A DNA stretch of 64,000 nucleotides, taken from assembly GCA_017506865.1 (NCBI GenBank), contig JAFCMP010000169.1, positions 1-64,000 on the forward strand, in the 5' to 3' direction. A program made the position numbers and the translations under genes. This document shows, one piece after another, positions 18,037-62,707 of this stretch. The notes under the pieces were generated by a model, which had not been told where the DNA came from, did not search any database, and saw nothing but the letters and a program-made list of their open reading frames with translations. The first letter of the stretch is position 1. Each line of letters begins with the position of its first letter. The DNA comes from Tribonema minus. Lineage: Eukaryota; Sar; Xanthophyceae; Tribonematales; Tribonemataceae.

Positions 18037-21000
18037 TCACCTCTGTACCCTGACGAGCTTGCTGTACCAAGCAGCAGAGGCCTTTGGGTAGCGCTGCTGT
18101 GTCGGATAGTCGACGTAGCTGCACATTACAACACATAGCAATCACCATTGCTTCAGCTACTGGTCAAGTTCGCTACTGCTTCAGCTGCTGGTCTAAATGG
18201 AGCATGCTAATAAGAGTGAATCAGATGAGCTCAGGCGGGCAGCACAAAACTAACCCTAGCCCTAGCCCTAACCCCCTTTCACACGACTCATCGCTGTATC
18301 AGATCGACATAGCTGCGCATCACAACACATAGCATTCGCCATTGTGCCAGCTACTGCTCGATAGCGTGCAAATCACCACACGTAGCATTCAGCGTTGCTT
18401 CAGCCACTGCGCAATAGCTTGCAGACCACAACACGTAGCATTCGCCATAGCTTCAGCAACTGCTCAATAGCATGCTAGTGTAATTGGACAATACTTCGAA
18501 GTATGAAATTCAGGCAGATGCCACCCTTCTTTCCGCGCGAATCTGGACACTGAAAACTACAGTAAATAAGGTGACTATGAACGCAAGGCGATTATGCCAT
18601 GAACACTTGCGAGACGCCAAGACCTGTTGAGGTGGCAGTTTGTCAATGCCATGTTGGCGGGTCATGTCGATGTACGCAAGTTCAAAGCAAAAGCAAGCAC
18701 ATTGTATGAATTAGGTCCACATCGCTGGACCAGTTGCAAGCCTCCTGGACCACTTACAGTATGTTTACAACACATCACTGATAGAAATGCAGAATATTCA
18801 TTGGAGTACATACCTCGAACTGTGACTTCACAACTCCAAAAAAGGTACATCGTTATCACTACACAAGTCAAAAGCGCTTGCTGTAGCATATCACTGATGC
18901 AGAAGTAGTATGTAAAGATCACTCCAAGTGCAAAGCAAGTACATGGTGGTCACTCACACAAAGTACAAGAATACCCGTGCAAACAATGTATGTAATGTTG
19001 ACTTCACAAGTCCGAAGAGCTTGCTGTAGTCATGCAAATGCAGTATACACGAAGTACATGAACTTGACTTCAAGCCCAAACCAAGTACATCGTAGTCACT
19101 GACACAAGTCCAAAGCGCTTGCTGTACATAGCATGTTACTGATGCAAATGCAGTACTTCAAGGTATATAAAGATGACTTCACAAGGTACAGCATGGTCAC
19201 TTACACAAGTCCAAAGCGCTTGCTGTACATAGCAGGTTACTGATGCAGATGCAGTACTTCAAGGTACTTATATATAAAGATGAGTTCACAAGGTACAGCA
19301 TGGTCACTTACACAAGTCCAAAGCGCTTGCTGTAGCCATCCGCCCACTCTGCACAAACACCAGGCACAGCAGGAAAACCATCGGCATCAATGTCTAAGCC
19401 TTGAAACGTCTTGCAGCAGCATGAGTGGGTAAGCCTTGAACCGTCTTGCAGAAGCCCTCAGCATCAGCGTCTAAGCCTTGAACCAACGTGCAGCTTGTGT
19501 CATCTGAATTAATTTCAGCTGCAGCCATTCTGTCCTTTTTTAATCACCTACTGAGCAATGAGCAGTGCCATCAAGTTGCCAGCTAATATACATCCCAGAC
19601 AGACATTGTGAGTACATGACTGCAGCCATGCGTAGCGTCACTGAACTTCTGGTGCCAACTGCCACCGTAAACCCTGACCCTAAACAGAGAACCCCACCTG
19701 GAGCACGCTCATAAAAAAAAGGAGCACACTTAGGGTTAGGGTTTAGGGTTTAGGGTAAGATGCCACGCTGCAGTTGAAGGTCACAAGACTCCAGAGCCGC
19801 ACTTCTAGCACACATGACCAAATGCCAGCTCAGGAAAAAGAATGTATCAAGCATGACTCGTTTAATGACAGAATTATGTGCGCAACACAGCAGTTAGCAT
19901 GCTCGTGATGTTGTTGACCTGGGCATTGACAGACCATAGAAAAGACGACAGCCTGCCATTCATGAGCTTGCAGGCTCTCAATCCATTACTTCAAGTTGCA
20001 ACAGTAAGTACGCATTCATGTGCCCTCATCACACGCATCGAATGCACATAAGAAATCAACCGTGGTGTATGCTCACGTTCACTTTTGGGAGATTCAGAAC
20101 ACCATTCATTCATTGACTCGACACACGGAAAATGCGACTTGTGCATAGGGACCAAAAGATTATCGAAAGACGAGAAAGTGACTCATGTGAAAAAAAAAAG
20201 GAAGGCATCCATGTGCTTGTCAAACGTATCAGAAGCTGAGAGACAGGGCTTCACGTATGCTCATCGTTTTTGGAGACTTTCAATACCATTAATTCATTCA
20301 TTAATTCATTCATGGGTCAGCTGCGGCAGCTCAATAATTGTTCGTCCTAATCCTAACCCTATTCCTAACCCTAAGAGGAGGCCATCACGTACTCACCGGA
20401 GTTGTCCAGAAGGCTCCAGGCAAAGTGGCCAATCACAGGCACCTTGTCCTCCTTGACAGCTGACCCTAACCCTAACCCTAACCCTGACCCTACCCCGAAA
20501 AGAGAAACTGGTTTGTGCATAGTTTGTCGAAAGTTGAGAAAAGGCACTCATGTGTGCTCACCGAAATTGTCCAGAAGGCTCCAGGCAAAGTACCCAATGA
20601 CAGGCACATTGTCCTCCTTGACAGCGAGGTTGACGTTGGATAGGTAGCCCTGGTAGTACTTGATGCGGAATGGATCTCTGAGGACAAAGGGAAGGCCCAG
20701 TGCGTTCTCCCCTGGTACATCGCAGCCGTTCTCTGCGGCGTAATTCAGCAGCAGCGTGGCGTGAGCAGCAGTCAGTGACACTGAACAACAGCAATCCATG
20801 CAATGTTTTGCACAAACAAGAAGAAAGGGCAGGCACAACGCGTTCTCTCCCGGTACATAGCAGCCGTTCTCTGCGACATAATTAAGTAGCAGCATGGTGT
20901 GAGCGGCAGTGATCACCACGAGTCTATGCAATGTTTTGCAGAAGCGAGAACAGATGACAGGCCCAAAGAGTTCTCTTGCGGTACATCGCAGCCGTTCTCT

Positions 21001-61700: not shown

Positions 61701-62707
61701 GCTTGGGGCCAGCAACAGGGTCAGACTGCTTATGTAGCAAAATTGCAACTCTGCACGGTGATTCAATGGCGCTCACGTGCCTGGTATGCATGAGCACTGC
61801 GCCACTGACTGACTGCCTAAGTAGCGCTAGCGAGGCCATTGTCCCTAAACCCAAACCTCAAATGCAGCTCTTCATGGGCAACCATTTCATTGTCCCCGCA
61901 GTTGCCATGCCACCCCTGCAGGGCTCCATGTAAGACACTCAGAGCACGGCAGCGCTGCTGACCGCCAACAAATAGGGCTAGCTAGCCTCTGCCAAACCCT
62001 AAGCCTAACCTAAACCTAACCCTTATTGCTCTGTCGGCGCGCGCGCCATGCCACCCCTGCAGGGGCCCCTGCAAGACACGAAGAGCACGGCGGCGCTGCT
62101 GACCGCCTACAAGCGCGCCGTGCGCTACGTCCTCAGCAAGGGCGTGGCCATCATCGCCGCCGCCGGCAACGACAGCTTCAACTTCGATGACGCCAACGAC
62201 CAAAGCGTCTACGTCCCGCAAGACGTGAAAGGCGTAATAGTCGTCAGCGCCACCGGGCCCAAGGGCTGGCGCTACAAACCCACCGCCAACATGGACCGTT
62301 TGAGCTACTACTCCAACTACGGCGCGAACGTCGTCGACTTCGCTGCGCCCGGTGGGGACATTCGGTCCATGTACGCTGACTCGGAGGCACTCTGCTACGT
62401 GCCTGTCATCAAGCGTAAGGTGAAGTGTTATCAGCTAGATGCCATGCTCGGCGCCTGCTGCTACACTCCTGAGGGGGGGTATGGGTATAGATGGGCCATG
62501 GGTACGTCCGCCGCCGCGCCGGTGGCTAGCGGTGTGGCAGCGCTCATTGTATCCAAGCTGGGGCATCACGTGCCGCCTGCCAAGCTAGAGATGTGTATGC
62601 GAAAGACAGCGGAGGATTTGGGGGAAAAGGGGCGAGATGCCAGCTACGGCTGGGGGCTGGTGAACGCGGGCAACGTCGTGGATCTCAGGGACTGCCAGCA
62701 GCAGTAG
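58757..62707 (+). CDS. Secreted subtilisin-like serine protease (S8), 3 exons (558 aa)
   Basis: Exons 58757-59471, 60675-60991 and 62063-62707 sum to 1677 nt in frame. A basic, Leu-rich signal peptide covers residues 1-27. An inhibitor I9-type propeptide follows (about 28-125, ending GVQSVTPVQQVQYL). A low-complexity Gly/Ser linker lies at 139-181 with SKRHLR after it, a plausible processing point. The catalytic domain starts near 205. Triad: Asp237 in VAVLDTG (the Gly codon is split by intron 1), His279 in SHGTWTASLIAA, Ser493 in GTSAAAPVASGVAAL. Oxyanion Asn380 is in AAAGND. The domain ends with YGWGLVNAGNVVDL. A Cys-containing insert (LCYVPV...ACCYTPEGGYGY) before the Ser motif is unusual. 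The ATG at 58757 is preferred over an upstream non-ATG opening because it starts the signal peptide. Confidence 0.92.
59575..59640 (+). repeat. Subtilisin intron 1: donor-edge echo of exon 1
   Basis: GCGGGGCTGAGGGGGGCGGGAGTACAGGGCCAAGAAGGCAGTGCTCAATACAGGTGCGCGC repeats the exon 1 end GCGGGGCTGAAGGGGGGAGGGGGCTACAGGGCGAAGGTGGCAGTGCTCGACACAGGTGCGCGC. In this copy the catalytic Asp codon GAC is AAT. Confidence 0.92.
59652..59785 (+). repeat. Dispersed repeat family B, copy 5
   Basis: ATGGAACAAATCAAAACACCGTGGAGCTCTAGGTGACAAGGTGTGGTTAGCCGCAAGTGCCTCC, then GCAGCTGCTGCAGCAACTAGCCATGAGTCGGACAGTGCTACCAT. Closest in order and content to copies 1 and 4. It lies in subtilisin intron 1. Confidence 0.82.
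60530..60615 (+). repeat. Subtilisin intron 1: acceptor-edge echo of exon 2
   Basis: CCAGGGTTCTGGCTGGAACACCCGCCATCGCCCCCAACATCAACAGGCGACTCTCCAAGAGCTTC repeats the start of exon 2 (GFWLDHPAIAPNINRRLSKSF), 140 bp upstream of the real acceptor. The flank (CTCCGCCCCGCTGTTG) is repeated too. A one-base deletion in the echo shifts its frame. Confidence 0.93.
61080..61400 (+). repeat. Subtilisin intron 2: two donor-edge echoes of exon 2
   Basis: GGCGTGAAGTATGCGGCGGACTCCGGGGTGGACATCATTAACATGTCGCTGGGGCTG|GTAAGTACT (61104-61170) and ATGAAGTACGCGGAGGACTCCGGGGTGGACATCATCAACATGTCGCTGGGGCTG|GTGAGTCTT (61342-61402) repeat the real edge (60935-61000). Both keep the MKYAADSGVDIINMSLGL codons and a functional-looking donor. 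Confidence 0.95.
61605..61975 (+). repeat. Subtilisin intron 2: two acceptor-edge echoes of exon 3
   Basis: CCATGCCACCCCTGCAGGGCTCCATGTAAGACACTCAGAGCACGGCAGCGCTGCTGACCGCCAACAA (61908-61974) and a more decayed GTAGCCCCCCCCTGCAAGACATCACGGCGGCACTGCTGATC (61652-61694) repeat the exon 3 start (real at 62047-62110). Confidence 0.88.

Follow-up and report, generated by a model that had tools for sequence, protein, structure and literature searches.

The introns of three genes in the window, a 64,000-nucleotide stretch of a Tribonema minus contig, contain 53 diverged copies of exon edges together with their splice sites (referred to here as echoes), each lying in an intron adjacent to the copied exon in the spliced gene models. 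The best explanation, to which we assign a probability of about 0.85, is that short local duplications have repeatedly struck the gene bodies at random positions and that the intronic copies have since decayed neutrally.

Exon-edge echoes in the window

Echoes were sought by aligning junction probes (up to 90 nt of exon plus 60 nt of intron) to the same intron, with a threshold of the mean plus 4 SD of Markov shuffles; as the thresholds derive from random shuffles, the count varies by about one per gene between runs. Echoes were found at 18 of 26 junctions in the GH1 beta-glucosidase gene, 8 of 14 in the JMJD6-like gene and 3 of 6 in the subtilisin gene (Table 1). The JMJD6-like count of 15 leaves out exons 1–4 and 13–14; with all exons included it becomes 20 echoes at 13 of 26 junctions. 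The observation itself is thus confirmed. The original count of about 45 copies in four genes was surpassed in number but is borne out in three genes, the supposed MJ1316 gene being unconfirmed. Pfam scans of 16 ORFs in that region (~34.5–43 kb) gave no convincing match, and local duplication makes up 30–38% of its sequence. The gene-free stretch is devoid of echoes, as had been claimed. An Rfam scan of the window yielded no matches at gathering scores.

The 13 introns of the GH1 gene (14,665 bp) hold 33 junction-spanning copies (32 with other shuffles), and in these 33 alignments the copies are direct and near their source, with exon edge, splice site and intron flank running on unbroken. When the GH1 probes were aligned to the 12 other introns, 18 matches were obtained in 312 tests, 10 of them in the next-door intron, with a best score of 182; this score is exceeded by 23 of the 33 echoes. 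Junction echoes account for 34% of the GH1 intron bases and other duplications, lying wholly inside introns, for a further 19% (total 0.53). Tiny exons on which the guide proteins disagreed were dropped from the GH1 model, and its frame indicates that coding bases within 23521–21749 are absent from it. The corresponding control for the subtilisin gene, which has 5 echoes, gave one match in 12 tests.

Table 1. Positions of genes, model exons and echoes in the window
Feature	Position	Strand	Basis or remark
GH1 beta-glucosidase gene	18052..34274	-	spliced alignment, three guide proteins; exon frames checked
GH1 model exons, first seven	34274-34035, 31919-31825, 30599-30389, 29699-29652, 28655-28587 (GC donor), 27891-27797, 26796-26745	-	
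GH1 model exons, last seven	25667-25620, 24673-24595, 23781-23522, 21748-21663, 20732-20562, 19348-19312, 18118-18052	-	
Two acceptor-edge echoes of exon 31919-31825	32087..32310 (32310-32192, 32165-32087)	-	probe alignment, also read directly
Two donor-edge echoes of exon 31919-31825	31412..31703	-	probe alignment
Two acceptor-edge echoes of exon 30599-30389	30670..30965	-	probe alignment
Donor-edge echo of exon 30599-30389	30163..30280	-	probe alignment
Two donor-edge echoes of exon 29699-29652	29096..29289	-	probe alignment
Two donor-edge echoes of exon 27891-27797	27395..27720	-	probe alignment
Acceptor-edge echo of exon 26796-26745	26882..26962	-	probe alignment
Donor-edge echo of exon 26796-26745	26590..26655	-	probe alignment
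Two acceptor-edge echoes of exon 24673-24595	24770..25048	-	probe alignment
Donor-edge echo of exon 24673-24595	24365..24430	-	probe alignment
Acceptor-edge echo of exon 23781-23522	23842..23948	-	probe alignment
Two junction-spanning donor-edge echoes and one partial copy, exon 23781-23522	23104..23456	-	probe alignment
Two acceptor-edge echoes of exon 21748-21663	21903..22131	-	probe alignment
Two donor-edge echoes of exon 21748-21663	21309..21574	-	probe alignment
Three acceptor-edge echoes of exon 20732-20562	20819..21195	-	probe alignment
Donor-edge echo of exon 20732-20562	20372..20460	-	probe alignment
Four donor-edge echoes of exon 19348-19312	18806..19227	-	probe alignment
Two acceptor-edge echoes of exon 18118-18052	18293..18480	-	probe alignment
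JMJD6-like gene, exons 5-12, 15 echoes in their introns	43273..51354	-	guide protein
JMJD6-like exons 5-12	51354-51308, 50140-50048, 48722-48614, 47254-47177, 45490-45341, 44809-44739, 44297-44210, 43363-43273	-	
Gene-free stretch	54926..58756	.	0% local duplication
Subtilisin (S8) gene	58757..62704	+	own annotated protein P0121, aligned over full 471 residues
Subtilisin exons	58757-59119, 60138-60228, 60675-60991, 62063-62704	+	
Acceptor-edge echo of exon 60675-60991	60480..60597	+	start approximate
Two donor-edge echoes of exon 60675-60991	61101..61440	+	ends approximate
Two acceptor-edge echoes of exon 62063-62704	61620..61971	+	starts approximate

Orientation, sidedness and decay

Local copy pairs are direct in 143 cases and inverted in 10, counted over 270 kb of non-overlapping stretches with ankyrin repeats excluded (159 and 10 if stretches examined twice and the ankyrin gene are included), and their commonest offset is 150–175 bp. 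Probes made of exon alone recovered 26 copies in the GH1 and subtilisin genes, of which 24 lie within 2 nt of the intron-facing exon edge and the remaining two at distances of 11 and 24 nt. None of the 26 derives from the wrong edge, a one-sidedness which we attribute to the need to keep the reading frame. The claim that donor-edge copies lie only downstream and acceptor-edge copies only upstream of their exon therefore stands for exon-only copies, but the junction matches in next-door introns (scores 106–182), for example complete copies of exon 13, which is 37 nt long, may include some from the wrong side.

The decay with distance noted earlier was found in four genes with 74 echoes (42 donor and 32 acceptor): identity falls with distance from the source (Spearman -0.37), and the nearer copy is the more similar in 42 of 56 pairs. 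Identity is 0.82–0.83 in the exon part and 0.74–0.76 in the intron part, with the drop just past the splice motif. Among 83 echoes, differences at the three codon positions number 222/1438, 220/1430 and 341/1435, the pattern of one coding and one free copy. Echoes thus diverge as would unconstrained sequence next to an exon that is under constraint. In the GH1 genes of C46 and C57 (7 echoes) the third-position excess is absent, which counts against our preferred explanation. The GH1 models of C12 and two of C49, built on weak guides, enter the paralog junction count and are left out of the identity, splice-dinucleotide, divergence-ratio and codon-position analyses.

In the subtilisin gene of the window the ratio of intron to exon divergence is 3.4 (5 echoes), that is, the exon parts have diverged less than expected under the rule; the ratio is 1.3–1.55 in three other echo-rich genes and 1.05–1.7 in three GH1 paralogs. 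This outlier also counts against the preferred explanation, and gene conversion of the echoes was considered for it.

Two duplications in the window appear recent, one with a period of 105 and 110 matching bases at 97%, the other with a period of 81 and 88 at 92%; they match over the period plus 5 and plus 7, respectively. Among the high-identity repeats listed, a match extending over one full period or more is seen in only four (these two and two short ones in L013 and L019), and the other listed pairs match over less than one. The copies may have arisen directly head-to-tail, and the short matches of these other pairs count against the preferred explanation.

Random placement and alternative explanations

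We simulated random short duplications in introns starting at 250–350 bp, with unit lengths and mutation steps chosen by hand. The simulations gave an echo at 0.55–0.73 of junctions (observed 0.69), 2.5–4.3 echoes per intron (2.5), a distance-identity Spearman of -0.34 and -0.42 (-0.37), a nearer copy that is more similar in 0.71 and 0.77 of pairs (0.75), and a median nearest distance of 105 and 94 (88 nt), the method imposing a minimum of 60 on all of these distances. Under this model random placement suffices and targeting of exon edges would not be needed, with an excess of up to two-fold possible. The simulated echoes and other duplications cover 0.79–0.84 of the intron bases, against 0.53 observed; part of the intron sequence therefore came from elsewhere or has decayed. 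The proposal of repeated tandem duplication across junctions is well supported in that the copies are local, direct, flush with the edge and neutrally decaying; the implied special status of exon edges is not, as duplications wholly inside introns also occur and random placement reproduces the pattern.

A process which starts duplications at exon–intron boundaries, for example through R-loops, nucleosome steps or spliceosome-linked nicks, seems unlikely. The peak of offsets noted above would suit it, as would the 350-bp-start simulations, in which echoes and other duplications take 38–45% and 38–42% of the bases against the 34% and 19% observed in GH1, so that an excess of up to about two-fold is possible. 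However, a 250-bp start gives 57%/27% or 50%/29% with no targeting (ratios 2.1 and 1.7; observed 1.8), and interior-only duplications are common. It is very doubtful that the echoes are a functional array of spare sites for alternative or recursive splicing kept by selection. GT or AG is retained in 35 of 45 echoes (donors 17/24, acceptors 18/21; 3 of the other 10 are unscorable because of gaps), slightly above the 68% expected from exon-part identity. Yet the splice dinucleotides, with identities of 0.89 at donors and 0.95 at acceptors, come close to the nearest exon bases (0.85–0.93), and the drop past the motif is consistent with the real copy alone being constrained. Splice sites are multiplied, as had been proposed, at the level of sequence, but comparison of sequence identities gave no clear sign of selection keeping the extra ones.

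Birth of the introns themselves by tandem duplication of an AGGT-bearing exon segment, as in the Rogers model, is highly unlikely. It would agree with the intron positions, since in position and phase the 13 modelled GH1 introns have no match among those of C46, C527a or C57, although 4–5 lie within 6 residues. The ends of such an intron are copies of the opposite flanking exons; here each exon-only copy is found on the side of the edge from which it derives, and donor and acceptor echoes are different copies, each near its own junction. Since the echoes carry intronic flank, the intron predates them, and the C46 GH1 gene has echoes in introns 2 and 4 and shares 6 of its 7 intron positions with C527a. 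The location of the copies inside introns and the splice sites which they carry might also suggest pre-mRNA fragments or introner-like elements copied back into introns; since the copies are local, direct, near their source and, in GH1, seldom matched in the other introns of the gene, an RNA-mediated origin is most improbable. Finally, an assembly artefact or contaminant contig, to which the few echoes in GH1 paralogs elsewhere in the assembly might point, can practically be dismissed. Misassembly fails because 30 of the 33 GH1 echoes diverge from the original by 10–30%, and they do so with a codon-position signature; echoes also occur on contigs C312 and C24. A contaminant contig was rejected on mobile elements which this contig has in common with C195, C1, C526 and C312 (94–99% in the best matches).

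Proposed mechanism

According to the duplication explanation, short local duplications would repeatedly strike some T. minus genes anywhere in the gene body, perhaps through error-prone repair of staggered or nicked breaks. A duplication inside an exon would break the protein and be lost. One inside an intron or crossing its edge would be tolerated because the exon-proximal splice site, probably the one in use, still works; the extra copy would turn into intron, decay neutrally and be pushed outward by later duplications, the intron growing about three-fold. This leaves unaccounted for the lack of echoes in paralogs and of any duplication in the gene-free stretch.

We suggest, tentatively, a gene-body mutator acting on a subset of genes, in which transcribed DNA is broken and then repaired through short tandem duplication, sometimes with addition of telomere repeats. 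If so, introns would lengthen several-fold, starting at their edges, and accumulate series of redundant splice sites, paralogs and intergenic DNA would be untouched, and the lengthening would be distinct from transposon insertion.

Comparison with known systems

Introner-like elements of fungi multiply intron DNA many times within one genome and are dispersed and alike across genes, whereas the Tribonema copies belong to their own junction; similarity across introns is confined within GH1 to the 18 matches in 312 given above. The dispersed repeats of the window are separate from the echoes. In plants, tandem duplication at adjacent nicks produces short duplications from the repair of staggered single-strand breaks; the Tribonema copies are similarly short, and a repair origin for them would be by analogy.

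In the potato RdRp gene a new intron came from a tandem duplication across an intron–exon boundary (PMC4974935). As in Tribonema, the short unit runs from the end of an intron into the following exon and takes its splice signals from the parent junction; the potato case is a single event yielding a new intron, while in Tribonema as many as dozens of events in one gene, on donor and acceptor sides alike, have lengthened existing introns. The Drosophila cases (PMC2891723) likewise involve a gene segment duplicated locally in tandem, one copy of which then became intronic, but there an exonic unit with a proto-splice site becomes a new intron and here the unit already spans the splice site. The statement that no named feature has such density needs qualifying, as single junction-crossing duplications are published (PMC4974935), but our literature search did not find a comparable density. 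T. minus offers a genome in which the lengthening of introns may be followed one event at a time through decaying copies of genuine splice sites, and it makes testable how splicing passes over decoy sites that are still intact, how introns can grow longer in the absence of transposons, and why duplications strike one paralog but not another.

Distribution among paralogs

How dense the echoes are depends on the gene. Of the 166 junctions in seven GH1 paralogs, 8 bear echoes (introns below 160 bp were unsearched and scored as echo-free, which applies to 20 of the 166, to 20 of 92 junctions in nine subtilisin loci and to 2 of 18 in L023). One subtilisin paralog has 23 echoes, and nine others have 3 in total. 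As a general pattern the echoes do not hold up: they are prominent in some genes but infrequent in most of the paralogs examined. Under the one overlap rule used, no lineage-specific duplications between paralog loci were reported. The models of L020 and L022–L027 include small exons of doubtful status, and in the TPP2 model one stop is read through close to the end of exon 4, away from the echo-bearing junctions. Near-equal kinase matches mark C179 and C90, and likewise C144 and C223, as likely pairs of haplotype contigs.

GC content showed no correlation with duplication density (Spearman 0.24, p=0.16). Break repair is known to leave telomere-like tracts as a scar; 10 of 44 such tracts lie within 8 bp of a duplication boundary, against 5.2 ± 2.3 expected, which is not significant. 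The density of the tracts rises with that of duplication (Spearman 0.51, n=35; outside the window 0.38, p=0.053, n=26), which speaks for the preferred explanation.

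Echoes in the genes of the window

Gene models were obtained by spliced protein-to-genome alignment (14 exons being used for the GH1 beta-glucosidase, 4 for the subtilisin, guided by the window gene's own annotated protein, plus the JMJD6-like gene), and probes crossing each junction were aligned against that junction's own intron. The echoes claimed in the original prediction, that is, diverged copies of an exon edge with its splice site and intronic flank, are real: 15 were found at 8 of the 14 junctions of JMJD6-like exons 5–12, five at 3/6 junctions of the subtilisin, and 33 junction-spanning copies at 18/26 junctions of GH1, a density exceeding what a casual reading suggests. 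When GH1 probes were run as a control against the other introns of GH1, 312 tests gave 18 matches with a maximum score of 182, and 10 of these fell in the adjacent intron; 23 of the 33 GH1 echoes score higher than 182. With exon-only probes 24 of 26 copies ended no more than 2 nt from the intron-facing edge, and none came from the wrong edge. The 37-nt exon 13 of GH1 may have been copied whole, with its upstream flank, into the next intron (scores 120–125).

Features of the window and their duplicated fractions
Feature	Position	Strand	Duplicated fraction	Remarks
Near-palindrome, 0.7 kb	4673-5352			76% match to own reverse complement
Open frame, 2087 aa	6344-12607	-		PF00078 (reverse transcriptase) match, E 1.5e-6, just below Pfam cut-off
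Dispersed repeats, one family	12551-12698, 13757-13910, 37790-37909, 63302-63421			Also on C1, C526, C312, C12
GH1 beta-glucosidase	18052-34274	-	0.66	
Telomere-like tracts (examples)	20463-20485, 25876-25900, 46775-46800, 50718-50750			
Predicted site of MJ1316 gene	34500-42900		0.30	
JMJD6-like gene	43273-51354	-	0.53	
Ankyrin-repeat gene	53632-54925	+		81-base repeat units
Gene-free stretch	54926-58756		0	
Subtilisin (S8)	58757-62704	+	0.51	
One shuffle (control)			0.011	

Decay of the copies

Over 45 echoes from five genes the exon part is 82–83% identical to the exon and the intron part 74–76%. Donor echoes have an identity of about 0.85 over intron bases 1–6, then 0.66 over the following six; in acceptor echoes it is 0.88–0.95 in the final four intron bases and about 0.76 upstream of them. 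Among 83 echoes from seven genes, differences at codon positions 1, 2 and 3 amount to 0.154, 0.154 and 0.238 (chi-square p 2e-10); this third-position excess is absent in the GH1 paralogs on contigs C46 and C57, which have few echoes. The identity contrast and the third-position excess point to a real exon held under constraint next to a copy free to change. The splice dinucleotide (GT or AG) survives in 35/45 echoes, which is no clear excess. The window subtilisin is an outlier, with an intron/exon divergence ratio of 3.4 (5 echoes).

Origin of the echoes

Within 270 kb we counted 143 direct and 10 inverted pairs; offsets were below 275 bp in 72 of the direct pairs, with a mode of 150–175. 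Because of this orientation and nearness, the similar numbers of donor and acceptor copies (42 and 32), and two recent duplications that match over 5 or 7 bases more than their period, local duplication at the DNA level is supported. In most other high-identity pairs the match is shorter than one period.

The original prediction, repeated tandem duplication of segments spanning exon-intron junctions, is right in the main, but nothing special about the exon edge is required. In one coordinate simulation, and in sequence-level simulations passed through the same detector as the real data, duplications were placed at random over the intron and exon margins with the real exons held fixed; introns were grown to 1130 bp, the GH1 mean, under hand-chosen settings, with duplication lengths picked manually to follow the offset histogram. 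Starting introns of 250–350 bp gave echoes at 0.55–0.73 of junctions (0.69 observed), 2.5–4.3 echoes per intron (2.5 observed), a ratio of echoes to other duplications of 0.9–2.1 (1.8 observed), and reproduced the observed drop in identity as copies lie farther away. Introns starting at 200 bp ended with 3.9–5.0 echoes each and those starting at 500 bp with 1.9; for comparison, mean introns of GH1 paralogs are 406 and 470 bp (the two C527 copies), 649 (C57) and 697 (C46). Given these agreements, random duplication with loss of exon-breaking events is enough for the pattern, under hand-chosen settings and with the total duplicated share overpredicted (0.79–0.84 simulated, 0.53 observed).

Error-prone break repair would fit as the molecular cause, since the density of telomere-like tracts rises with that of duplication (Spearman 0.51, n=35, or 0.38, p=0.053, n=26, when the window is left out). 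These tracts are not significantly placed at duplication boundaries (10/44 within 8 bp against an expected 5.2 ± 2.3). The window holds 26 of them (CCCTAA/TTAGGG, exact, at least 11 bp), and three shuffles of it none.

As predicted, the gene-free stretch holds no copies. Together with 1-6200 and L030, another stretch examined, it is 0–6% duplicated, and 12700-17950 is 14–18%. The sparing of intergenic DNA rests on few stretches, of which only 54926-58756 is taken as gene-free.

Distribution among genes and contigs

Echoes occur in GH1 paralogs at 3/14 (C46), 0/14 and 1/14 (C527a and C527b), 2/20 (C57) and, in three weak models, 2/30 (C12), 0/34 and 0/40 (C49a and C49b) junctions, counts which include 20 junctions in introns too short to search. 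Of ten subtilisin loci compared, L023 on C312 has 23 echoes at 8/18 junctions and the remaining nine together 3, at 3/92 (20 too short to search). Four 5-kb windows elsewhere, hand-picked from a random list of 40 over 14 contigs, have duplicated fractions of 0.19–0.31 (0.14–0.36 under another filter); one contains a gene for TPP2 (match to PDB 3lxu, E 5e-15) with 3 echoes at 2/10 junctions. The duplication process is therefore present on several contigs, yet very uneven among genes, and the interesting question is why some genes are saturated with echoes and others spared.

For none of the 13 modelled introns of the window GH1 do both position and phase agree with an intron of C46, C527a or C57, although 4 or 5 are no more than 6 residues away from one of theirs. 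At another locus, L029 (C113:890000-898000), local repeats are densely packed in GC-rich DNA and include 6 inverted pairs, perhaps an array of a different kind from the exon echoes.

In the potato RdRp gene (PMC4974935), one tandem duplication crossing the boundary between an intron and an exon created a new intron; unlike that one event, serial junction duplications fill the introns of some Tribonema minus genes. Drosophila cases were inferred from near intron pairs (PMC2891723). In a literature search mostly outside subscription journals, no listed title or abstract reported introns packed with serial duplications of junctions, which does not prove that such a report is absent.

Source of the DNA and other features

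The yellow-green alga T. minus belongs to the Xanthophyceae, and its transformation paper describes a genome paper as in preparation (PMC7139823); our literature search did not find the latter. The assembly comprises 158.2 Mb in 554 contigs, the window being bases 1-64000 of C169. Mobile elements common to this contig and C195, C1, C526 and C312 (best matches 94–99% identical) rule out a contaminant. Kinase matches of equal or near-equal score on C144/C223/C278 and C90/C179 suggest haplotype duplicates in the assembly.

A 5.9-kb stretch of the 2087-aa open frame region has a 99% identical copy on C195, suggesting that it is probably a young retroelement. Among the best 120 listed homologs of the window subtilisin besides itself, the top ones are metagenome proteins and named bacterial S8 proteins (about 42% identity); possibly the gene is of bacterial origin and gained its introns later.
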